Shown here piece after piece: positions 4,428-61,057 of a DNA stretch of 64,000 nucleotides. Below the pieces are notes generated by a model, which was not told where the DNA came from, did not search any database, and was given only the letters and a program-made list of their open reading frames with translations. Each line of letters opens with the position of its first letter. Within the stretch, counting starts at the first letter, position 1. This DNA is from Acidimicrobiia bacterium (GTDB taxonomy: Bacteria; Acidobacteriota; Vicinamibacteria; Vicinamibacterales; CAVVIG01), in NCBI GenBank assembly GCA_016871175.1, contig VFZL01000007.1, forward strand, positions 1 through 64,000, given 5' to 3'. The translations under genes were made by a program, and so were the position numbers.

Positions 4428-6122
4428 CTACGGCATACGATCGATACCTACCGTCTTCCAGCCGTCCGAGGTCCGGCGGAAGTACAGGGTCATCGGCGTG
4501 CTCCAACCCGCGAACCGTGGATGTTCACCTCGGATCTCGACGCCGATCATCTCGCGGGTCTCGAGCAGGCCGGCCGGCATGGCAAACCGCGGAACAGCGG
4601 TCCACTCCGGTGCCCCGGCTACCGGACTCCGACCGTCGGTGGCGTTGTCGAACCGAAACCACCGCGCCTGATACCGCCCCGCGTCTCGCAGCGGAGTGGT
4701 CGCCAACTGGTCCCGGGTCGCACGCTCGGCGGCGTTGGTGCAATCGAGCCATCCATCGGTGACCAGCTGGCAATCCACCAGCGGCAAGACACCGTTCAGC
4801 CAGGCGGTCGCGATCTTGTCTCGCCGAGCGATGAGGGCTCCTACGAGGAACGCTTCGGCCGCTGGATCCGAATATTGTCCCGCTTGCACCGCAGCACGAA
4901 TGGCGGAGTTGCTGAACGACGCCACCCGTCGGGCCGCCCAGAAGAGGTCGTCGGCTCGTGCGTTGTCGAATGCCGCGTTCGAGTACGGCGGAATCCAGGA
5001 GCTCGGGTCGAAGAACGTCGCCTCGAACTGACCCACCGATGGCAGATCCGGGTACGGGACCTTCACCCACGGGCGGACGGCCAGCCCGAGCGTCAGCAGG
5101 GTGCGGAGCTTCGGGCGGTTCCGCCACGCATCCTCGTTGCCAGCGGGCGCCCGCTCCGCGAGCGCGCTGCCGCTGCCCAGCGTCGCACCGAGCTCGACGA
5201 GCCAGTGCCGCACGAGCTGGCGTCCGTTGGCGTCGACCAGAACGTCGCGCGTGCCGAATGCCGCGGGCGCGTCGTGATTCAGCCAGGCGGCGAAGACCTT
5301 CAGGCCGCGCAGCTCGCGATGGTGTTCGTGGGGAAAAAGGTCGTTGGGGTCGTCGCGTCGAGTGCCGGCGTATGTGAACGGACCAAGGTCGACACCGTCC
5401 GGCTGGCGGCGCGCCACGACACGATAGCTGCCGTCGGTATGGCGTGCCGTCCGTGCCAGCAGGAGCCCCAGGTCCGTGGTGGTCATGCGGCGCCGGTGGC
5501 CGAACTGGTCGCTGACCAGCGCGATCGGGTCGATGGCGAGCTGTCCACGTTTCACACGGATGAGATGATGCGTTGGGGCGTTGTAGCCTGCAGCCCCAAG
5601 CAACGTCACAGTGAGCATCGTCGCGCCGGTCGTCCGCTCGGCATGTGCCGGCGCGTCGAATGTCAGCACGTGGCCGACACCCAAGGTGTCTCGCACGTTC
5701 AGACGAACGAGCCGCTGGGTGCCTTCGGCAGCGGTGATCGTCCACCGGTTCGCGCTGTCCTCTCTGGTCCGATCCACCCGGTTCTCACCGTCGTCCGGGA
5801 CCTCGACCGTCAGCCGTCCGGGATCGGGAGGCCGGTTCGTGAACCAACTGGAGTCCGGGACTTCGTCAATCGTGTTGACGTTCATGGCGCGTATCGGGCC
5901 CTGTCCGCGAGAGCGTCCGCGGCTCTCGAGCCAGCGAGTCACGTCCGCGCTCATCGACGCCATCGAGGTTCGCGGCTTGACGCGGCTCGCGTCATGCGAC
6001 TCAGGATCCGTCACGATCGGATCGTCGGGAAGAAACCGCGAGGCAACGGCCACGGTAGAGGTGGCCAGCGCGATGGTGACGACAGCTCTGAGGGCCCAGG
6101 TGCCGTTGCGTGGGGGAGTCAT
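4428..6122 (-). CDS. Conserved secreted protein of unknown function
   Basis: 564 residues starting at ATG 6122 with an uncleaved anchor or signal segment (TWALRAVVTIALATSTVAVA). I do not recognise a named domain. Features: an N-terminal region with NTIDEVPDSSWF, a central HEHHRELRGLKVFAAWLNHD stretch, and a C-terminal immunoglobulin-like tail rich in W and R. The ATG overlaps the stop of the upstream barrel gene by four bases (6119-6122), so the two are translationally coupled. Partnership with an outer-membrane barrel suggests an envelope role, which is inference only. Confidence 0.7.
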   Translation of the reverse strand: MTPPRNGTWALRAVVTIALATSTVAVASRFLPDDPIVTDPESHDASRVKPRTSMASMSADVTRWLESRGRSRGQGPIRAMNVNTIDEVPDSSWFTNRPPDPGRLTVEVPDDGENRVDRTREDSANRWTITAAEGTQRLVRLNVRDTLGVGHVLTFDAPAHAERTTGATMLTVTLLGAAGYNAPTHHLIRVKRGQLAIDPIALVSDQFGHRRRMTTTDLGLLLARTARHTDGSYRVVARRQPDGVDLGPFTYAGTRRDDPNDLFPHEHHRELRGLKVFAAWLNHDAPAAFGTRDVLVDANGRQLVRHWLVELGATLGSGSALAERAPAGNEDAWRNRPKLRTLLTLGLAVRPWVKVPYPDLPSVGQFEATFFDPSSWIPPYSNAAFDNARADDLFWAARRVASFSNSAIRAAVQAGQYSDPAAEAFLVGALIARRDKIATAWLNGVLPLVDCQLVTDGWLDCTNAAERATRDQLATTPLRDAGRYQARWFRFDNATDGRSPVAGAPEWTAVPRFAMPAGLLETREMIGVEIRGEHPRFAGWSTPMTLYFRRTSDGWKTVGIDRMP

Positions 6123-49084: not shown

Positions 49085-49600
49085 GATTCTACGCGACGTG
49101 CTCGACTGAGACGCGAAGGCCCATTCTATGATCGCGAGCACGGAGCGCGGCGACGAGCCGGGGCATGTCAGCGTGTTCCTTCAGTCGCCGGAAGCCTTTG
49201 ACGGCTTCGAGCACGCCCGCCGCGACCCAGCGCAGCATCATCTGCCCACCACCCCAGCGTTTCACGTTGCGCTTCACGTGGCGCGTCCGACTGAGGAGAC
49301 TCTCCGCCGCGTTGGTCGTGGCGAGCGACCGCTGCAAGCGGGCCGAGAGCTGCAGCGTGAGGACGGTCAGCGTTTCCTCGAGCCCTTCCCGCACGCTGCC
49401 GGCGGCGCTGGGATATTCGTCGTTCAGGCGCTTGGCGCGATCGGTGAGCAACCTCGAGGCGCGGGCCGCACGACTCGTACCGGCGACGCTGGCGTCGCGG
49501 CGGCTCGCAAAGAGCACCGCTGCCTGAATCGCGGAGAGCGTTCGTCCTCGCGATGCCTGATTTCTCAGGGTCGCGTGTGGCGCGGGCCGGTGCACGCAAT
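49037..49600 (-). mobile_element. IS256-family insertion sequence remnant (transposase C-terminal part)
   Basis: The minus-strand frame 49595 to 49089 encodes a transposase C-terminus: DEYPSAAGSVREGLEETLTV, RSLATTNAAESLLSRTRHVK, RNVKRWGGGQMMLRWVAAGV and LEAVKGFRRLKEHADMPRLV, the standard IS256/mutator DDE-family tail. Only about 120 of some 400 residues are recognisable, so the 5' part and one end are lost. The right end probably lies at about 49037-49040, where the response-regulator similarity stops. From about 49600 to 49773 nothing is recognised. Confidence 0.75.
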
Positions 49601-50241: not shown

Positions 50242-50248
50242 TTTTGTG

Positions 50249-50599
50249 ATGTCAAACTCGACGCTCGACACGTTTCCGAACCCGCGACCCGAGCGCCGCT
50301 ACAGCATCGCGATCCACTGTCCCGAGTTCACCTCGTTGTGCCCGAAGACCGGGCTACCAGACTTCGGCGAGCTTCGGATCACGTATGTCCCTGACGCACG
50401 ATGCGTCGAGCTCAAGTCGCTCAAGTATTACCTCATCGAGTTTCGCAATCGCGGCATCTTCTACGAGGCCGTGACCAATCAGATTCTGGATGATCTGGTC
50501 TCGCTGCTCGATCCGCACGAGATGACGGTCGTCGGGGACTTCTCGGCGCGCGGCGGCATCACCACCTCGGTGACGGCGACGCACAAGAAGGGCCAGTGA
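50249..50599 (+). CDS. queF: NADPH-dependent preQ0 reductase QueF
   Basis: 116 residues, the short single-domain QueF type. The catalytic Cys is in EFTSLCPKTGLPDFG, and the substrate-binding segment is VELKSLKYYLIEFRNRGIFY followed by EAV. It reduces 7-cyano-7-deazaguanine (preQ0) to preQ1 in queuosine biosynthesis, a cytoplasmic homo-oligomer. A GTG at 50246 is also in frame, but the ATG at 50249 fits the promoter better. No preQ1 riboswitch is present, and no other queuosine gene is in the window. Confidence 0.93.
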   Translation: MSNSTLDTFPNPRPERRYSIAIHCPEFTSLCPKTGLPDFGELRITYVPDARCVELKSLKYYLIEFRNRGIFYEAVTNQILDDLVSLLDPHEMTVVGDFSARGGITTSVTATHKKGQ

Positions 50600-50625: not shown

Positions 50626-50913
50626 GTGCCCGACGATCCCCACCCTGTGCCGATCGAGCGCGAACTGGATCTGCATCCGTTCGCGCCGGGAGACGTGGTG
50701 TCGGTCGTTGAGGAGTACATCCGGGCGGCGGCCGAGAAGGGGCTCGCGGAGGTGCGTCTCGTCCACGGTCGTGGCAAGGGGATCCAGCGGGGTCTCGTCC
50801 AAGCGGCGCTCGAGCGGCATCCGCTCGTCGAGGCGTTCTGGGACGACACCGACGCCCACCTTGGCGCGACCTGGGCCAGGCTCAAGGAGAATCGGGAGCG
50901 TGAAGATGGCTGA
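50626..50913 (+). CDS. Small Smr-domain protein
   Basis: 95 residues from a GTG. The Smr (small MutS-related) motifs are LDLHPFAPGDVVSVVEEYI and VRLVHGRGKGIQRG. Stand-alone Smr proteins are endonucleases or RNA-binding proteins. It follows queF by 26 bases and overlaps the convergent DUF192 gene by 32 bases. Confidence 0.88.
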   Translation: MPDDPHPVPIERELDLHPFAPGDVVSVVEEYIRAAAEKGLAEVRLVHGRGKGIQRGLVQAALERHPLVEAFWDDTDAHLGATWARLKENREREDG

Positions 50914-51319
50914 TGGAAGACTGAAGACTCCCGCGGAAGGCGGGCGCGAAGCACACACGATCGCCGACGTGGAGGTCAACGGCTTGCACCGCTCCAGCCC
51001 ACAGCTCGATCGCCATGGCCGCCGACCATTCCGCAGCCGCACGCCAGCCCACCATGCGTTGGACGACCTTCAAGACCAGCCCGTCGCTGTCGACGAAGAC
51101 CACATCGATCGGAAACCGCATGCCGATGGTGTGAACGGTCCAACACGGCGCCAAGACGAAGGCGCACCCCGCATCCAGGCCATCGCGACCGAGCAGACCG
51201 CGGCGACGCGCACGCCGCGTGGTCGCGAGTTCCACCGACGAAGCGACCGCACGGCCGGTGCACGCGTCGACGATGATCGGCCTGTCCGTCGACGGGAGGG
51301 AATCCAGAAGACGCCCCAT
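50882..51319 (-). CDS. DUF192 domain-containing protein
   Basis: 145 residues from ATG 51319, overlapping the stop of the methyltransferase gene (ATGA). DUF192 motifs: ELATTRRARRRGLLGRDGLD, TVHTIGMRFPIDVVFVDSDG and LWAGAVQAVDLHVGD. The family is a small beta-barrel of unknown function, often secreted; no signal peptide is seen here. Confidence 0.88.
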   Translation of the reverse strand: MGRLLDSLPSTDRPIIVDACTGRAVASSVELATTRRARRRGLLGRDGLDAGCAFVLAPCWTVHTIGMRFPIDVVFVDSDGLVLKVVQRMVGWRAAAEWSAAMAIELWAGAVQAVDLHVGDRVCFAPAFRGSLQSSISHLHAPDSP

Positions 51320-51939
51320 CACAACACTCCAGGCACCAAGTGCCAGCCGACCTTCGCGCAGTACTCCCGGTAGCGCTCGTCCTGCGTCAGCACGCGTTCT
51401 TCGAGCAGAGCCCGGAAGACCAGCGCGGAGTCGGCGATCACGATCACCGCAATGTTCCACGCAGTCGGGTGCGCGGCGATGAAGCCGACGTGGGTCAGGA
51501 GATACCCGGCGTAGATGGGATGTCGCATCCAGCCGTACGGGCCTCGCGCCACCACACCACGATTGGCCGGAATGAGCCCAAAGCTCCGGCCGAGCACGAT
51601 CTTCCCCGCAATCACGAAGGCGAGACCGACGAGCGACAGGCTGGCGGTCAGCGGATCCGGCATCAGCGGATCGGCACCGCCCGCACGGAGCAGCGGCGGG
51701 CCGACCAGCGACACCGCCGTGATGATCGTCGCGATGACGGTCCGATCGACCACCTGCGCACGGCGGCGGAAGATCGTCAACACGACGACGAGGGCTTCGC
51801 TGAACAGCAGTAACAGTCCCGTGAAATGGTGCGTCTTCGTGAAGTCAGCCCACAGGTTGACCGACAGCAACACGAAGAGCGCCGCGACCAGGAGCCGGGC
51901 GGCCAAATCCGATATCCGCTCGCGTACCGTCAGCGCCAT
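51319..51939 (-). CDS. Isoprenylcysteine/phospholipid methyltransferase-like membrane protein
   Basis: 206 residues from ATG 51939. Five or so hydrophobic helices (LLVAALFVLLSVNLW, VIATIITAVSLVGPPLL, LVGLAFVIAGKIVLG), then the ICMT-family signature RGPYGWMRHPIYAGYLL and a terminal EERVLTQDERYREYCAKVGW. It is probably an inner-membrane SAM-dependent methyltransferase or a related NnrU/MddA-type protein. Confidence 0.85.
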   Translation of the reverse strand: MALTVRERISDLAARLLVAALFVLLSVNLWADFTKTHHFTGLLLLFSEALVVVLTIFRRRAQVVDRTVIATIITAVSLVGPPLLRAGGADPLMPDPLTASLSLVGLAFVIAGKIVLGRSFGLIPANRGVVARGPYGWMRHPIYAGYLLTHVGFIAAHPTAWNIAVIVIADSALVFRALLEERVLTQDERYREYCAKVGWHLVPGVL

Positions 51940-51941
51940 CG

Positions 51942-52274
51942 TTACGACTCCAGCGCCGGGCGACGGCGCAGCCGACCACCAGCACGCGTGGCGCGCGACT
52001 CGTCGGTGTCGACGAAGTAGGCCCGACACGCAGCGTCGAGGAGCTCCCGTGTGATCGTTGGCTCCCGACCACGGTAGCGGCAGAGCGCGATCACCTGTTC
52101 CAGGATGTCCCTCAGATGGCAGGCTCGAAGCGGCCGGTGGGTCGGCACGTAGTGCCGGCGCTGCAGGTACGCAATCATCACCTTGTGGAACCTGAGCCCC
52201 CGCTTACGGCAGTTCAGCTCGAAGATGCGAACGAACTGATCGAGTGTCGGATCCTCCACGGGAATCTTGTATTG
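51942..52274 (-). pseudogene. C-terminal remnant of an AAA-family ATPase
   Basis: The minus frame from 52274 reads QYKIPVEDPTLDQFVRIFEL, then NCRKRGLRFHKVMIAYLQRR, RPLRACHLRDILEQVIALCR and TITRELLDAACRAYFVD. This is the helical lid end of a bacterial AAA ATPase. Nothing upstream on this strand encodes the Walker motifs. A GTG at 52259 could start a 105-residue peptide. The piece that should precede QYKIP is found on the opposite strand (52271-52336). Confidence 0.65.
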
Positions 52275-52336
52275 TGTTTGCGACGAACCTGGATCCAGCG
52301 TCGTTGGCAGACGAAGCGTTCCTCCGTCGCATATCC
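52271..52336 (+). pseudogene. Inverted fragment of the same AAA ATPase
   Basis: On the + strand 52271-52333 translates as IVFATNLDPASLADEAFLRR followed by Ile: the sensor-1/arginine-finger segment (ATN...DEAFLRR) of the AAA module, normally located immediately before the QYKIPVEDP segment encoded on the minus strand. The two fragments share the bases ATTG at 52271-52274 and point away from each other. Confidence 0.6.
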
Positions 52337-52424
52337 GTACGCACTGTTTGGTGAATTCGCCGCGATTCCTATTCGCCGTCCCGAGACCACACGGCCCACG
52401 GCGTCGTCTGGCGAGTCCCCATTC

Positions 52425-54253
52425 GTGATCGCGTCGAATCCAGAGGAGGTGGTCGACGACGAGCTACCGCCTGCCACACCCCCATGGACACCACCACCGC
52501 TGGCATCCACCGACGAGGAATGGGAGGAGATCGCGCTCGATACGGACGGGACGAGCGGGCAGCGGCCCGTCCCTTCGGCCAGCGGCACGGCCGCGCACTT
52601 GGACATCGGCGCAAGCCACCATGTGGACCTGATGTCGGAGCCAATGGATCTCGATGCTTTCGTACGCGACCTCCACACGGTGGAGTCGACCGCGAACGCG
52701 CAGCCGATGATCCCGGTGGTCGATCTCAGCCACGTCAGCGATCCGGACGGCATTACCGAGCGATCGGATGCGATTGCCATCGACGCGCTTCTCCCAGAGC
52801 CAGTCGTGGTGACCGAGGAGGAGATCAGGCAGGAAGCGCGCGCGACACTCGAGGCGGAGATTGCCGCCGCTTTCGCCACCGAGGGCGAGCTCAATTCAGC
52901 ACTCGGGTCGCACAGCGAACCCTCGGCCAGATCGAGACATCCAGCACACCGACCGGGCTGGATGTGACCGAGCTCGCCTTCACCAGTGAGCTCGAGCTGA
53001 CAGCCGCAACCCCGTCCGCGTTCGCAGAGGAACCCGGCCTGCTGCCAACGTCGGTCGACCTGGGAGAGGAGGACGTCCCGTCGGCTCCGGAATTGCTAGC
53101 GCCGAACTACCTTGACGCGGCGCTGGCAGCTTTCAGTCCCGAGATCGAGGCCGCACAACGGTCGCGCGCCCGGACGTGGGAACCGCCAACCGAGAGCTGG
53201 CGCGCCGAGCTGAACACGCTGCCGCCGCCGCCCGCGCCAGCGGTTCACCCATCCTCCGCCATCGAACAGGCGCCTCGAGCGCCCGCGTTCGGAGCGGAAT
53301 GGGGTGACGTGCTGTCCGCGATTCGCCGCGATATCGAACAGCGGCGTGCCGCGGAGGAGGCGCAATCGGCGGCGGTGAGATCCAAGGCGGATGTCACGAC
53401 ACCGCCGCTGGTGTTCCCCACGCGCGCCGTCGCGCCAAGTGTCATCGCGGCCATCGAGTCCGGAGCCGCCGAGCGCGTGCGCCCGGAACCTCTCGTGGTC
53501 GCGTCACGCCCCGCGCTGGACGTGGTGCAGCCGGACCGCGCCCTAGCCGCGCTGCTCGAAACCGTGTCGAATGCGGAGAGCTTGCGCGTCCGACCAGCGC
53601 TCGAAGTCACAACGGCGAAGCCACTCGCGGTCGCACACGCAGGGCAGACCACTCTGATGCCGACGCCACTCAGCGAGGTCGTCACTGGCGAGGCGGCGGT
53701 CGAAGCGACAGTCGTGGGCGGGACCGCCGCCGCGATCGAGACACCGCTGCCGGCCGTGGCGGAGGCTGCGACCGGAGATCACTCACCGTTGGAGCGCGTG
53801 ATCGCAGCCGAGGAACGGGTTGAACCTCGGGTCGAGGACGTCATCATCGTCGGGGACGAGCGTCCGGAGCCGACCAGCCCCACGGTCGACCCTCTGGCGT
53901 GGCTCACCGCGGCGAGAGCACCGACAGTGTCCTTTGGAACCGAGAAGGCCTCGACGCCGGCCGACGTGACCGTTGTCACAGTGGAGGCTGCCCAGGTGAC
54001 CGAGTCACCGGCAGTCGCGGCGTTCACGGAATCGGCGCGGCCGAGCACCGCCGCGGCAACGCCCGCATTGCCGGCCCGTGCGGGGCGCCCACCAAAGGGC
54101 AAGAAGAAGCGGAAGCCGCAAAGGAGCGAGGCGCCCCAACTCGTGCTACCGCCCATCGACGATTGGGGATTCTTCGATCCACAAACGGCCGGATTCGGTC
54201 CACTGGTCGCGCGCCTGAATCAACTGTCCGCAGGCATGGAGGCGTACCCCTAA
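52425..54253 (+). CDS. Long acidic low-complexity protein, frameshifted near 52915
   Basis: About 609 residues if one missing base is restored. The first part (from a possible GTG at 52425, NPEEVVDDELPPATPPWTPP onward, rich in Glu/Asp/Pro/Ala) is open to about 52967. Similarity of composition then continues one frame away from about 52920 (LGQIETSSTPTGLDVTELAF) to 54253. The C-terminus has a basic hinge (GRPPKGKKKRKPQRSEAP) and a compact end with PIDDWGFFDPQTAGFGPLVA. The true start is uncertain. No catalytic domain is recognised. It lies next to the AAA remnant and may once have been its partner. Confidence 0.6.
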
Positions 54254-55041
54254 CGGCCGACGAGCTCCTCCTCCTTGCGCCCTTGCACCATTTCGACGCG
54301 GACGCCGACTGGCGCGTCGACGAATGCCACGCTCAAGTGGCGAACAGCGCGAGGCTCGGTGGGCTTCGCGCCGGCTGATGCCAGTGCCGTGACCTTGGCG
54401 GCCACGTCGGGCACGGCCCAGCCAAGGTGATCGATTGCGCGTCCGAGACTCGGCGCCGGCGCGTCACCCTTTTGCGCCAACAGCCACACGTTCGGATTGC
54501 TGTACTTGACGGCGTCAATCCGACCCTTCAACTTCGATGGCGTCCCCCCGAAGTTGTCCGAAATCCACTTCAAGCTCGCGGCCGGGTCTGGAACGAGCAA
54601 GTGGATATGGTGGAAGCCCGGCGTCTCGGCGTCCTGGACGATCTCGAGCTTCACGCCGAACGGATCCTGCACGAACGCCAGCTTGAAGAGCCCCGGGACG
54701 TCGCGGGCCGGGGTCAAGACGGTCGCGCCCGCAGCCGTCATCGCCTTCACGGTGGCGTCAACGTCAGTTACAGAGAAACCAATGTGATCGATCGCGCCGC
54801 CGACGCTCGGCTGCGGCTTGTCCGCCTTGGCGAACGCAAAAATCGTACGGCCGATGACGAAGCGGTCCGGCTGGTCGCCACGTTTCGCGTTCAGCTGCTC
54901 GACATACCAGGACACTGCCTTGGCAGGGTCCGGCGCCGCGAGGTGCACGTGATCGTACGGAAAGGTCTGCGCACGCGCCGTGAGCGGCAGTGTCGATGAC
55001 AGAAGGGTGAACGCACAAGCGAGGTACAGGTTTGTTCGCAT
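54250..55041 (-). CDS. Secreted two-domain VOC (glyoxalase/bleomycin-resistance fold) protein
   Basis: 263 residues from ATG 55041 with signal peptide LYLACAFTLLSSTLPLTARA. Two VOC modules: FPYDHVHLAAPDPAKAVSWY ... FVQDPFGVKLEIVQ and FHHIHLLVPDPAASLKWISD ... FVDAPVGVRVEMVQ, with metal-ligand His and Glu at the expected places in both. It is probably a periplasmic dioxygenase-, lyase- or binding-type VOC protein. Overlaps the convergent acidic-protein gene by four bases. Confidence 0.88.
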   Translation of the reverse strand: MRTNLYLACAFTLLSSTLPLTARAQTFPYDHVHLAAPDPAKAVSWYVEQLNAKRGDQPDRFVIGRTIFAFAKADKPQPSVGGAIDHIGFSVTDVDATVKAMTAAGATVLTPARDVPGLFKLAFVQDPFGVKLEIVQDAETPGFHHIHLLVPDPAASLKWISDNFGGTPSKLKGRIDAVKYSNPNVWLLAQKGDAPAPSLGRAIDHLGWAVPDVAAKVTALASAGAKPTEPRAVRHLSVAFVDAPVGVRVEMVQGRKEEELVGR

Positions 55042-55239
55042 GGCAAGAACTGTCGATGATCTCACGCTGAAAAGCAAGATGGCTCGTTCGTGTGCTCGGC
55101 TCTCAAGCTCTTGGCGCCCCTGTCCGGCATGACGGTTGCGGCCTCTCCGTCGAACCCGGGCGCGGTCACCGCAAGTCCTTGACTCCGCGCGGGGGCGAAT
55201 CGGGGTGCGCGAAAACTGCGCGTGGGAGAGGCGTCGAGC

Positions 55240-57749
55240 ATGGCAACTTCTGCACCGTCACAGATGTGGGGCGTGGGGGATCGCGTCCGGGTGCGGCGCG
55301 AACGATGGCGGGTCGCCGCCGTTGACGGAGACGTCGCGTGCCGTGTGATCACACTCGATGGTCTGGGGCCCCACAACTTCGCCGAACAACGCATCCTCCT
55401 CGAGCCATTCGAGACGATCGAACCGCTAGGGCCGCGCACGGCGCCCGGCACACGACGGCTTGGGGACCTCCGTTGGCGTTCCGGGCGCCGGCGCTGGCGC
55501 CGCGCGTGCCGACACGTGCTCGCGTCGGTCGGACCTTGGACGCGGCTCCGCAGCGTCGACACAGCCAATATCGCCGTCATGCCGCACCAGCTCGAGCCGG
55601 CGCTCGCCGTCCTCGGTGGTCGCGGGGCTCGCGTGCTCCTGGCGGACGCCGTGGGTCTGGGCAAAACGGTCCAAGCGGGCGTGCTGCTATCGGAGCTCCT
55701 GCGACGTGGCGTCGCACACTCGGCGCTGGTGCTCACCCCCGCGGGCCTCCGCGACCAGTGGCAGCAGGAGCTCTCCACTCGCTTCAACCTCCAGGCCGAC
55801 ATCATCGACTTCCGAGCGACCGCACGCCTGACCTGGGATCTACCGCTCGGCGTGAATCCCTGGAGCACCTGCCCACTGGCGATCGCCTCAGTGGATTACG
55901 TCAAGAGACCGGAGGTGCTGCCCGCCGTTCACGCCCGGGGATGGGACATTTTGATTGTGGACGAGGCCCATGCCGTGACACCGGGATCGGATCGCTACGC
56001 TGGGCTGGCGCAGCTCTGCCGATCGGCCCTCTTCGTCTTCTTGCTCACCGCAACGCCGCACAGCGGCGACCGCATGGCATTCGCCGCGCTCCGCGCGCTC
56101 GGCGCATGCGATTCCTCCGCGGATGACTGTCTGCTCTTCCGTCGATCGCGGGCAGACGTGTCGAGCGCGACGAGACGGCGCGTCCACCTGGTCGGCATCC
56201 GCCCAAGCCCCGCCGAATCGCGTATGCACGCCGCACTGGACGACTATGCGGATGCCGCGGACCGAGTAGCCACCGACGCCCGGAACGCGATGTTGCTCGT
56301 CTCCACGCTGCGGAAGCGGGCGTTGTCGAGCCCGCGGTCGCTTCTGGCATCGGTCAACCGCCGGCTGCGCGTCCTCGATGCTGTCGCATCCGGCGCGAGC
56401 CGCGAGCCGAGCGTCGGTGAGCAACTACCGCTGCCGCTCTCGGACCCGAATGACAACGGGGGGAGCTGGACGCTGGCGATGAGGCCCCGAGCCTTGACGG
56501 CGCGGGCCTCGACGACGTGGATCGCGAGCGTGCTCTTGTCGAACACGTGCGTCTGTCAGCGACCGGGGCCACGGCCGCCGAATCGAAGCTCGCGTCGCTG
56601 GCCCGCTTGCTGCGTCGACTCGCGCGGCGGGGCGAAGCCGTCATCGTGTTCACCGAGTATCGCGACACGCTCCTGCACCTGCAACGCTCGGTCGCACCCG
56701 ACGCGCTCGTGCTGCATGGAGGGCTGAGTCGCTGGGAACGGCGGGCAGCAATCGATGCGTTCACGACTGGCGTCTCCCGCGTGCTGCTGGCGACGGACGC
56801 GGCTGGTGAAGGTCTGAATCTTCACTACGCGTGCCGATGCGTCGTGCATCTGGAGGTGCCCTGGAATCCCGTGCGCCTGGAACAGCGGATCGGTCGTGTG
56901 GATCGGATCGGCCAGCCACGAACGGTGCACGCCTTCTGCCTGGTCTCTCGTCACCACACGGAGCGAAACCTGTTGCAGCGACTCGCGCGGCGTGTTGCGT
57001 CGGCCGACGTTGACGTTGGGATGACGAGCCCGCTCGAGTCGTGTCGCTCATCACATGACGCGTCGACACAGTCCGCTCCCGATGCCCCGACCGGCGCGCG
57101 CGACACCGGGTGGCATCAGGCGTTGGCGCGGGCGGCCGAAGCGGAAGCCGATCGGGTTCGCCGCTCGCGTGCGCTTCGAGCGAACGAAGAACGCAGTGGA
57201 CGTCGCGCTTCGGTGATTCTACCCACGGCCGTCGTCGCGCGCGCCAGACCTGCGATCCGATCGTGGCTGCAGGGACGAGCACTTCTTCTCGTCGAGGTCG
57301 TGCGTCTTGATGAGGCTGGACGATCGTTCGCGTCAGTGGCGCGGCCGATGCTCGTTCCGGTGAGATCGGCGACAACGGCTGTGGGCCCTGTCGTCCCCGG
57401 CGTGTTCGGGCGGCTGACTGATTCCGCGCGTGAGATGGTGACCCGCCTCGAGCACGTCGTCGGGAACCTGGTCGGCCATCTCCAACAGGACTCGACATTC
57501 ACGGAACCGGCGCCGTTCTGGTCGATGGTCGCTACCCGGGCCGCCGACATCGCACGTACAACGTTGAGCGGCGCCTCGCAGTCTTTCCAGCCGGGGCTGT
57601 TCGACCGTCGCGCGCAGCGCCTCCGGCAGCTGCGCCTGGACAAGCAGGCGGCACTCGCCGAGCTCATGACGCAGCGCCTTCGACGGATCGAGGCGCTCAG
57701 CCGCGTGTCGGCCATGTCGGTCGGGCGTGCGTTGCTGTTGCTTCCCTGA
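55240..57749 (+). CDS. SNF2/DEAD-type helicase (DrmD-like), frameshifted at a G6 tract
   Basis: About 836 residues if one base is restored. The N-terminal part from ATG 55240 has an SH3-like strand set, VMPHQLEPAL (Q-like motif), LLADAVGLGKTVQAG (Walker A, about residue 132), LIVDEAHAV (DEAH, about 240) and LLTATPHSG. The frame closes after DPNDNGGSW. The other frame takes over at about 56465 (DGAGLDDVDRERALVEHV) with VIVFTEYRD, LLATDAAGEGLNL and EQRIGRVDRIGQ (motifs IV-VI). A run of six G at 56458-56463 is the likely site; seven G restores the frame. Family: SNF2 translocases of the DISARM DrmD type. The methyltransferase gene starts five bases after its stop. Confidence 0.8.
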
Positions 57750-57754
57750 CGCTG

Positions 57755-60700
57755 ATGCTCACGGGGTTTCGCGGGTCGCTCATCGCCGAAGGCAGCGTTG
57801 CTTCTCGGGTCGCCGAGGCTCTGCACGACGAGACCGTCGAGACGGCACATCGCGCGTTCACCCTCGCTCGCCGAGCCAGCCTGTCGCTGGGTCCCGCGTC
57901 GAGCCTTCGACAAATGTCGGAGATTGGCGCCGAGCCACTGGCTGAGGCATTGGGCTTCAGCCTGCGCGATTCGTTCGCGGCCTCAGGGCTATCTCGACCG
58001 GTGTCGCCATCCGAGCCGCGCGTCCTCCTGGCGCGGGCGGGCACTATCCAGGTGCCGTGGTGTGTCGCAACGTGGGCGGCACGCCTCGACCCACTCTGGA
58101 GGACCGCCGCAATCGCGGCCCGAGAAGTCGGTTCGCGTTGGGCCGTGCTCTTCAATGGCACCCATGTGCGCCTCATGGACGGGACCTCACGGTACGCCGC
58201 CCGGTGGCTGGAAGTGGATCTCGACGCAGCCGCCGACGACCGCTCGACGTTTGTCGCACTTTGGCTCCTCGTGCGGGCGGAGGCCATCGCCAGTGGTCTC
58301 GCCGCCCTCGTCGACGCCTCGGACGCCTTCGCGGCCGACGTATGTCGATCACTCGGCGAGGGTGTCCGTTTCGCCTCCGGGCAGGTACTCGACGTCGTCA
58401 TCGGACGACAGCGTCGCGCCGTCGACGTGCAACAGGCGTTTGAGGAGGCGCTGACGGTTGTGTATCGAATCCTCTTCCTGCTGTTCGCGGAGTCTCGTGG
58501 CCTGGTTCCAATGTGGCATCCGGTGTATCGACGTAGTTACAGCATCGACGCACTGCGACTGGCGGTCGAACGAGGACGGACCGACGGCCTCTGGGAGGCG
58601 GTGCGCGCGGTCAGCCGACTCGCACACGCCGGCTGCCGCACGGGGCCGCTGCAGGTGACACCGTTCAACGGACGGTTGTTCGATGCGCGGCGCGCGCCGT
58701 TCGTCGAGCGACGAGACTTGGATCGACGCGACGATCAGGCCGCAGGCCGAGCCCTGCTGGCCTTGACGACGCGCGTCTCTCGCGAACGAGGTGGACGGGA
58801 GCGCATCGCGTATAGCGACCTGGGCGTCGAGCAGCTGGGCGCCGTGTACGAGACGCTGCTCGACTACGAGCCCCGTGGACAGGCTACGCTACGGCTCGAG
58901 CCGGGATCAGGTGCTCGAAAAGCGAGCGGGTCGTTCTATACCCCTGAGCCGATGGCGCGGTACTTGGTGCGGCGCACGCTGGCACCGCTCGTCTCCGGGC
59001 GATCCCCCCACGAGATCCTGGCGCTCCGTGTCCTCGATCCGTCGATGGGCAGCGGTGCGTTCCTCGTCGCAGCCTGCCACTTCTTGGCTGACGCCTACGA
59101 AGAAGCGCTGCTCACCGAGGGCGCCTGCCTGCCGCAGGACCTCGACGATGTCGAGCGTAGCCGCATCCGAAGGCAGGTGGCTGAGCGTTGTCTGTTCGGC
59201 GTGGATCTCAATCCGATGGCGGTCCAGCTCGGTCGGCTGTCGCTCTGGCTCGCGACGCTGGCGCGGGACCGGCCGCTGTCCTTTCTCGATCACCACATCC
59301 GTTCGGGCGACAGCCTCCTCGGTGCGTGGGTCTCAGCGCTGGACACGCCGCCGGCCGCATCGAGACGCACGGCCACCGACGAAACGCCTCACCTCTTCGA
59401 TTCCGCCTTGTTGGCGACGAAGGTTCGGGAGTGGCTGCCGGCTCGGTTTGCGCTGACGGGCCCAGGCGACACGATTGACCAGGTGCGCGGCAAAGAGCGC
59501 GCACTGGCGACACTCGAGCACCAGAGTTCAACGCTCAGCCGGTGGCGCCGGGTGGCGGACCTCTGGTGTGCGTCCTGGTTCAGCGGCCGCAGCGGACTTC
59601 CTGCGTCCGCCTATCGGGCGTTGGCGGACGCGCTGCTCCATGGCACTGGCCCTCTCCCGGCCCACATCGCCGGGGAGTATCACGCGAGGGCTGACGCGAT
59701 CGCGAAGGCACGGCGCTTCTTCCACTGGGAGCTCGAATTCCCCGAGGCGTTCTTCGATGCCGACGGCCGACGGCATCCGCGTGCCGGCTTCGATGTCATT
59801 ATCGGCAATCCTCCGTGGGACATGACCCGCGGCGACATGGGATCGGGGGCGGCACGTGAGCGGGCTCGTGAAGACGCTCAGCGCCCAATGCGGTTCGCCC
59901 GTAACGCTGGCGTGTATGAAGCGTCCGGCCACGGACACGTCAATCGCTATCAGCTCTTCGTCGAGCGTTCGGTCGCCTTGCTGCGGGAGGGCGGACGATG
60001 TGGCCTGGTGCTCCCGAGCGGGATGCTCTCCGATCACGGCAGCTCGCCGGTCCGTCGGCTTCTGTTTTCCCGGTGCGAGGTCGACGGGGTCGTCGGATTC
60101 GACAATCGGAAAGCCATCTTTCCGATTCACCGCGGCGTCCGGTTCGTCGTCCTGACCGCCACCAAGGGCCACGCCACCCAGCAGTTCGGCGCGCGCTTGG
60201 GCGAGACGGATCCGGCCGTGTTGGGCTCCGACGACAGCGGCTCGCCCGACTGGTTCACCGTGCACCTGAGCACGGGTCTGCTCCAACGGCTGTCCGGACC
60301 GGCATGGACGGTGCCCGACCTGCGCTCGGCGAAAGACCTGGCAATCGTCGAACGGGCAGCTGCGAGCTTCCCGCCTCTCGGATCGAGAGAAGGATGGCAC
60401 CTCCGCTTCGGGCGGGAGCTGAATGCGACCGACGATCGCGACGTCCTGCGTCCGCCCGGCGAGGGGTTACCGGTCATCGAAGGTAAGCTTGTGGGCCCGT
60501 TCGTCGTCGACGTCGCAGGCGCGAGGCAGTCTGTTCGCTGGAGCGAGGCGGCGCGGCGGCTGGGCGACCGGGTCGGCCGCGTGCGCCTCGCGTATCGAGA
60601 CGTCGCGAGCGCGACGAACCGGCAGACGCTCATCGCCGCACTACTCCCGGCGGGGTGCGTCTCGACCCACACCGTGTTCTGCTTGAAGACACCACTGCCG

Positions 60701-61057
60701 CTCTGGGCACAGTACTGTCTGTGCGGGCTCTTCAACAGCTATGTGCTGAACTACCTCGTCCGCTTGCGTGTGACCACCCACGTGACCACGACCCTCGTCG
60801 AGTACCTGCCGGTCCCGACGAGGGCTGTACGACCGCACGAACTCCGACGTGTCGCTGCGTACGCGCGACGGCTGATTCGATGTCGCACGCGTCAAACGCC
60901 GGAGGCGACCGAGCGGTTTGCAGCGATGAATGCCGCTGTCGCGGCCGCCTATCGGCTGTCAGCGGATGAGTACGCGCACGTCCTCAACTCGTTCCCGCTC
61001 GTCTCAGCAGCCGAGCGGGCCCGCGCGCTGAGCCTCTACGCGTTGCGCCCGTATTGA
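57755..61057 (+). CDS. Eco57I-type N6-adenine DNA methyltransferase (DrmMI-like)
   Basis: 1,100 residues. Motif X GSFYTPEPMARYLV (about 391), motif I LDPSMGSGAFLVAA (about 427), CLFGVDLNPMAVQLGRLSLW (about 482), and the catalytic motif FDVIIGNPPWD (about 685), followed by a target-recognition region (VIEGKLVGPFVVD) and a C-terminal helical part. The N-terminal 390 residues include WAVLFNGTHVRLMD, reminiscent of restriction-fold domains but without a clear PD-(D/E)xK triad. It methylates adenine in DNA using SAM. With the preceding helicase gene it forms a two-gene module resembling drmD-drmMI. It overlaps the convergent panE-like gene by 22 bases. Confidence 0.88.
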   Translation: MLTGFRGSLIAEGSVASRVAEALHDETVETAHRAFTLARRASLSLGPASSLRQMSEIGAEPLAEALGFSLRDSFAASGLSRPVSPSEPRVLLARAGTIQVPWCVATWAARLDPLWRTAAIAAREVGSRWAVLFNGTHVRLMDGTSRYAARWLEVDLDAAADDRSTFVALWLLVRAEAIASGLAALVDASDAFAADVCRSLGEGVRFASGQVLDVVIGRQRRAVDVQQAFEEALTVVYRILFLLFAESRGLVPMWHPVYRRSYSIDALRLAVERGRTDGLWEAVRAVSRLAHAGCRTGPLQVTPFNGRLFDARRAPFVERRDLDRRDDQAAGRALLALTTRVSRERGGRERIAYSDLGVEQLGAVYETLLDYEPRGQATLRLEPGSGARKASGSFYTPEPMARYLVRRTLAPLVSGRSPHEILALRVLDPSMGSGAFLVAACHFLADAYEEALLTEGACLPQDLDDVERSRIRRQVAERCLFGVDLNPMAVQLGRLSLWLATLARDRPLSFLDHHIRSGDSLLGAWVSALDTPPAASRRTATDETPHLFDSALLATKVREWLPARFALTGPGDTIDQVRGKERALATLEHQSSTLSRWRRVADLWCASWFSGRSGLPASAYRALADALLHGTGPLPAHIAGEYHARADAIAKARRFFHWELEFPEAFFDADGRRHPRAGFDVIIGNPPWDMTRGDMGSGAARERAREDAQRPMRFARNAGVYEASGHGHVNRYQLFVERSVALLREGGRCGLVLPSGMLSDHGSSPVRRLLFSRCEVDGVVGFDNRKAIFPIHRGVRFVVLTATKGHATQQFGARLGETDPAVLGSDDSGSPDWFTVHLSTGLLQRLSGPAWTVPDLRSAKDLAIVERAAASFPPLGSREGWHLRFGRELNATDDRDVLRPPGEGLPVIEGKLVGPFVVDVAGARQSVRWSEAARRLGDRVGRVRLAYRDVASATNRQTLIAALLPAGCVSTHTVFCLKTPLPLWAQYCLCGLFNSYVLNYLVRLRVTTHVTTTLVEYLPVPTRAVRPHELRRVAAYARRLIRCRTRQTPEATERFAAMNAAVAAAYRLSADEYAHVLNSFPLVSAAERARALSLYALRPY

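Follow-up and report, generated by a model that had tools for sequence, protein, structure and literature searches.

Genes and features of the locus

The stretch of DNA analysed (the window, 64,000 nucleotides) was derived from a genome of 4.44 Mb in 85 contigs and 96.8% complete (G000), in which the site described here is placed on contig C7. The closest relative, a member of the same genus, was MAG RBC058 (G001; contig CADEDC010000003.1, holding locus L005), with a DNA identity of approximately 76–80%. All pN/pS ratios refer to the comparison with G001 and were obtained by Nei–Gojobori type counts with our own script.

On the left flank, a QueF-like gene (50246–50599, plus strand; tblastn and Pfam PF14489, E = 3.1e-32) and a DUF192 gene (50938–51319, minus strand; PF02643, E = 4.9e-15; ORF 50882–51460) were syntenic with G001, with pN/pS of 0.17 and 0.46, respectively. 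They were followed by a gene for an ICMT/PEMT-like membrane methyltransferase (51319–51939, minus strand; PF04140, E = 1.7e-6) with an intact frame, 78% amino acid identity to G001 and a pN/pS of 0.27; its start was chosen by homology, the mechanical ORF beginning at 52029. In relatives, this gene lies directly downstream of a gene for an AAA-like ATPase. Further to the left, a segment of 87 bp (49441–49527) shared 89.7% identity with G001, while blastn yielded no match for the adjacent DNA. In the whole window, this segment included, ARAGORN detected no tRNA and no Rfam family reached its gathering score.

The right flank starts with a truncated gene, designated X (52335–54253, plus strand; tblastn and blastn). 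A glyoxalase-family gene (54250–55077, minus strand; PF00903, E = 1.2e-21), the match of which in G001 is on contig C15, sits in the window between X and a SNF2-type (DrmD-like) helicase gene (55222–57749, plus strand; homology and synteny). The frame of the helicase is broken near a run of six G at approximately 56458, while G001 has a single frame of 844 codons. An Eco57I/DrmMI-like DNA methyltransferase gene (57755–61057, plus strand; PF07669, E = 4.7e-21; pN/pS 0.41) was syntenic with G001. In G000, G001 and G012, the DrmD-like helicase and the DrmMI/Eco57I-like methyltransferase form a pair adjacent to the tad locus. The helicase also adjoins X in G016, where the fetched stretch ends; neither gene was seen in the 2–3 kb past X in G013, G015, G017 and G020.

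Two pieces of the AAA-like gene were located between the ICMT-like gene and X. The plus strand at 52271–52336 translates as IVFATNLDPASLADEAFLRRIS, and the minus strand from 52274 to 51942 as QYKIPVEDPTLDQF onward, its stop at 51942 preceding the homology-based ICMT-like start ATG (51939) by two bases. By homology with the intact protein of 454 residues (orthologue ORF L005:4966–6330), the minus-strand piece (51942–52271) is a C-terminal remnant from residue 346 onward, and the plus-strand piece (52271–52333) is an inverted scrap corresponding to residues 324–344. The first ATG, GTG or TTG in frame with the remnant is a GTG at 52259. Blastn against L005 placed 50936–52271 on one strand (75.6% identity) and 52271–52332 on the other (80.6% over 62 bp, E = 3.2e-9 against 29 kb), the two blocks abutting at base 52271. 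Thus, both the translations and the blastn strand switch bear out the first-pass annotation, which had placed AAA pieces on opposite strands at this position. It had also considered the pieces to be consecutive in intact proteins. Intact genes were read in genome contigs at five relatives' loci (L004–L008; L004 and L005 are nearly identical at this gene), and in 5/5 the pieces are adjacent, ...FATNL...EAFLRRI-P-YKI..., with a frame continuous through both; one Pro codon between them had been overlooked. In the window, this residue (345) is absent between the scrap and the retained part, which starts at Tyr 346. The claim that the upstream AAA coding sequence was gone was confirmed, residues 1–323 being absent at the site. 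With respect to L004 itself (CADEHD010000117.1, 3308–6553), a contig binned as Chloroflexi bears a locus of the Acidobacteria type, which is 94.2% identical to L005 overall, 99.6–100% past position 6001 and only 80–94% in 5001–6000; judged by these identities, the contig is apparently a mosaic or mis-joined.

All 21 residues of the scrap were identical to those of G001, while 13 of its 63 nucleotides differed, in 12 codons and all silently; chance similarity is excluded because of this identity despite the silent differences. The thirteenth difference, at 52333, possibly belongs to the junction. The path-averaged count gave a pN of 0.023, above zero owing to a Leu codon with two differing positions, and the protein-level match had an E value of 3.6e-6 in a whole-genome search. 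The remnant showed 84% amino acid identity to G001 and a pN/pS of 0.17; the best segment of this fragment was 86% identical to the L005 orthologue, directly upstream of the ICMT-like gene. A Pfam search with the remnant alone gave no significant match. No further AAA copy was found in G000, where four other matches were weak and partial (E = 0.0018 to 0.07).

The intact homologue was compared with solved AAA ATPases (6pdw, MSP1, Cdc48), which it resembles in the ATP-binding stretch, residues 159–192. With 6pdw, a membrane-spanning ATPase-like protein, residues 159–192 and 316–367 align, the latter including the scrap; the similarity is weak, with a best whole-sequence E value of 4.6e-6 (6pdw) and values of 0.29 and 0.19 for the two stretches alone. 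We take these stretches to correspond to the Walker A, sensor 1 and arginine finger. The Pfam AAA match of the intact homologue (E = 0.0019, 19.1 bits) is below the cut-off of 21.2 bits, and the AAA label itself is based on weak matches and is used here as a putative one. In G000 the ATP-binding part (residues ~159–192, containing GPPGNGKT) is missing and only residues 324–344, inverted, and 346 to the end are left; the C-terminal fragment without the ATP-binding stretch therefore constitutes no working ATPase.

Gene X begins in the window at residue 208 of the 920-residue G001 protein, the first 207 residues being gone. In tblastn without low-complexity filter against G001, residues 208–383 matched at 45% (E = 4.7e-39) and residues 446–920 at 29% (E = 3.3e-25) in a different frame; at DNA level the identity was 73% over 226 bp. 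The frame changes between approximately 52890 and 52975, in a stretch with runs of three bases at most, as might fit a young pseudogene. The protein is rich in Ala and Pro, and its residues 1–280 gave no Pfam or NCBIfam match. The first part of X had a pN/pS of 0.54, in a gene that is poorly alignable; the value for the tail (0.76 at 22% identity) appears mis-registered and was left out.

Gene order in relatives and the missing Tad cluster

AAA and X were found on one contig in ten relatives (G001, G006, G012, G013, G015, G016, G017, G020, G032 and G037), always divergent and 9–14 kb apart; eight more relatives, with the two genes on different contigs, were uninformative. In G001, X is on the opposite strand, approximately 14 kb from the AAA start. 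Gene-by-gene tblastn mapping was carried out in seven of the ten genomes, G001 and members of six other genera (TadC was not among the queries; in G012, the fetched stretch ended short of the AAA and ICMT-like genes, and their positions were taken from separate searches). In 7/7, tad genes lie between AAA and X, and the AAA gene closes a Tad (Flp) pilus cluster.

From X to AAA, the order in G001 is Flp-like pilin, TadV-like, TadE-like, CpaB, a secretin in the CpaC position, a MinD/CpaE-type ATPase in the TadZ position, TadA and TadB/TadC-like. CpaB exceeded its cut-off (NCBIfam TIGR03177, E = 6.8e-64), while TadA reached 334 bits against a cut-off of 373 (TIGR03819, E = 8.3e-100). The names Flp, TadV, TadE, CpaC, TadZ, TadB and TadC are presumptive, being given by position and characteristic features. 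CpaB, CpaC, TadZ, TadA and TadB followed the G001 order in all seven mapped genomes. On the other hand, Flp was matched in G001 and G015 only, QueF in G001, G015 and G016 only, and TadE was unmatched in G013 and G016, its best match in G012 being after CpaC and not before CpaB.

The G001 cluster and the window share the same flanks and gene order: with the exception of the glyoxalase gene, they are collinear over QueF, DUF192 and ICMT on the left and X, helicase and methyltransferase on the right. The G001 cluster is complete, while in the window the AAA C-terminus, the scrap and the X C-terminus remain, and everything from the X N-terminus through the pilus genes to AAA residue 323 is missing. 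In total, 15,808 bp of G001 (C3, 59572–75379) are replaced by 62–63 bp of inverted scrap. For the genomes as assembled, this comparison establishes the ancestral order, the 15,808-bp loss and the derivation of the inverted filler from the lost stretch beside the left break.

Elsewhere in the G000 assembly, the tad sequences searched for had no close counterpart; TadA and TadC apart, most tad genes were queried at the DNA level only. The 13.7 kb of tad DNA of G001 gave three short marginal matches in G000 (E = 3.5e-4 to 6.6e-4; 40 of the 428 initial candidates scored), whereas the same search at the same limit recovered the full tad match in G001. With protein queries, TadC gave no match in G000, in a search that carried no positive control, and no close TadA was detected, the best of nine partial matches having 45% and E = 2.2e-12, against 1.1e-290 in G001. 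A second, diverged tad cluster is present in G001 (C47, 16000–27613), and G000 has no TadA close to that of either cluster.

Origin of the junction

The first-pass annotation had proposed that a block of about 64 bases was inverted or that a template switch had occurred. Both notions hold, and the predicted outcome of computational re-inversion was reproduced, since turning 52271–52334 gives ...AFLRRIYKIPVEDP... in frame and exactly one codon (Pro) short, the re-inverted stretch reading ...FLRRIYKIPVEDP... with that codon absent. Alternative block ends also preserve the frame, at the cost of at least one missing or wrong residue. An inversion of 64 bp in place is insufficient by itself because the far side of the block is gene X, the matching point of which is approximately 15.8 kb away in G001. 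The inverted block had thus been recognized, while the large deletion, the second truncated gene and the lost codon had been overlooked. A simple local inversion was ruled out by gene X beyond the block and by the codon missing after re-inversion.

At the left join, approximately 1 bp of matching sequence is present, and at the right join (52334–52341, between scrap and X, by homology) an ambiguous 4–7 bp. TCCGTAC (52334–52340) also fits AAA ATTCCGTAC of L006 and L008, with one extra A ahead; the homology with X begins at CCG (52335), and ATCCG fits X of G001. The right junction thus requires either one inserted base, if TCCGTAC derives from AAA, or two substitutions in X (GAA in G001 to TAC). 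With a nearest relative that is only ~76–80% identical, the junction microhomologies are tentative. No more than 30 bp from the breakpoints, AAA and X of G001 have an inverted 11-bp word, TCGAGGATCCG, in common; words of this length or longer were shared by 50 of 3000 random AAA/X position pairs (~1.7%), and the part of the 11-bp word as a switch aid is suggestive only. Outside G001, the X loci inspected lacked the motif seen at the break site.

The site is best read as the scar of a recent deletion of the Tad/Flp cluster, sealed by two inverted template switches, to which we assign a probability of roughly 0.6. A strand copying rightward through the AAA gene would have stalled at the Tyr346 codon and switched, at a match of about 1 bp, onto the opposite strand approximately 66 bp away; copying would then have run back toward the break for about 63 bp, until a second switch, via TCCG/TCCGTAC or the word GAGGATCCG, led into gene X about 15.8 kb off. 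The expected product is the one encountered, with AAA and X both broken and the Tad pilus gone, and the filler consists of 62–63 bp from the opposite strand, no further than about 66 bp from the left breakpoint. We infer that two inverted template switches are the simplest account in a single event, and an inversion followed by a deletion would yield the same product.

In that sequence of events, which we consider unlikely, the ~15.8-kb stretch would have been inverted between short inverted AAA/X matches, such as the 11-bp word near the G001 breakpoints, and later deleted except for its last 62–63 bp. The order and orientation observed, including TAC at both junctions, are as predicted; however, two rare events are required, both recent, given a scrap without amino acid change, the second would have to end within 62 bp of the first join in a stretch of 15.8 kb, and the inverted operon was seen in none of the seven mapped genomes. 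A phase-variable (switchable) segment of 62 bp would also explain a short block inverted relative to its left neighbour, but this candidate was rejected, with hardly any probability left to it: no pair of inverted repeats bounds the block at 52271 and 52333, the nearest repeat (11 nt, 82%) having arms at 52327–52337 and at 52220–52230, the latter 41 bp outside, and flipping could not restore a gene lacking residues 1–323 and one codon. Just as negligible is the reading that takes the window as the older state and has the relatives acquire the tad operon by insertion between X and AAA. No support for it was found; both genes would have had to pre-exist truncated and be completed in the ancestor of at least seven genera, and parsimony opposes it, the full arrangement being present in 7/7 mapped genomes.

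The junction is known from one assembly (G000), and it could be a chimeric molecule or assembly path (for instance, by multiple displacement amplification or from mixed strains), the operon being retained or arranged otherwise. Among amplification chimeras, as reported in PMC1855051, the most frequent type is an inverted join accompanied by an intervening deletion, 406 of 475 being inverted and 337 of these having segments less than 10 kb apart. The artefact was retained, as rather improbable, because such chimeras also join inverted segments with deletions; their short complementary segments may resemble the site as well, although they arise in the test tube. The absence of decay in the AAA pieces, with their low pN/pS, is compatible with an artefact too. 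Against it, the site has two inverted joins instead of one and regains the correct ancestral neighbour, and the misassembly raised in the first-pass annotation loses likelihood with two flanks that were neighbours ancestrally. Moreover, the join sits 52 kb inside a contig of 146,863 bp, gene X changes frame, and a chimera would not strip the operon from the rest of a 96.8% complete assembly, in which no close tad sequence was detected. The scrap carries no amino acid change, and therefore the event is recent, or else an assembly artefact. For most of the time after G000 and G001 split, constraint at the protein level apparently acted on the AAA pieces, the pN/pS of the C-terminus (0.17) being that of QueF. 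The frame change in X, where no run exceeds three bases, was counted toward recent decay; errors in the contig sequence are a possible cause of the broken frames because the second one, in the helicase, is at a homopolymer run.

The probable deletion sealed by template switching would add a new example to a known class of mutation and is no novel type of system. For starving E. coli, PMC3161906 describes double inverted template switches as well as deletions with microhomology of 1–4 bp, with amplifications and secondary rearrangements observed experimentally and accounted for by serial template switching. These rearrangements resemble the site in having several junctions per event, inverted pieces and, apparently, very short matches; the site differs as a natural deletion with a filler of 62–63 bp, for which the mechanism is derived by sequence comparison. 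Among the titles listed in literature searches, none refers to the loss of a tad operon in Acidobacteria, the nearest of those listed being that of a paper on gene decay in A. salmonicida (PMC2627896).

Possible Tad loss in the family

Searches for the AAA gene were performed in 27 genomes of the family (G000–G026). A match of at least 69% was obtained in 16, two had matches of only 44–48%, eight had none or weak ones (partial, E ~4e-4 to 5e-4), and G000 had the remnant. Loss of the Tad pilus may thus not be rare in the family, in which assembly completeness varies. The ICMT-like probe was run against 28 genomes, 18 of them from the family, and a close copy (E = 3.3e-59 or better) was present in 11/18, including G000; the other ten all have an AAA match of at least 69%. 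Among the seven family genomes lacking a close copy, the AAA match was 70% in G006 and 48% in G004, and none or weak in five. No second scar of the same kind was found with this probe in the 18 family genomes.

The ICMT-like gene (L095–L105) co-occurs with the tad AAA gene, the exceptions being G000, with the remnant, and G006, with AAA and no ICMT-like gene. From this co-occurrence, the ICMT-like methyltransferase may belong to the pilus system. Judged by its assembly, G000 is expected to be without this Tad pilus.

A bolder proposal, which we regard as very improbable, sees in the scar a natural record, at base level, of a fold-back template switch in two steps, captured in an uncultured lineage before decay set in. 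In this proposal the family would be losing the Tad operon repeatedly, with the scar as an intermediate, and the 105-residue AAA C-terminal frame beside the ICMT-like gene may have been retained as a small protein that has taken on a new role. If real, the site would show the loss of a whole pilus operon in one step together with its joint before decay, would provide a natural case of template switching outside model bacteria, and would mark this lineage as a recent loser of the Tad pilus.
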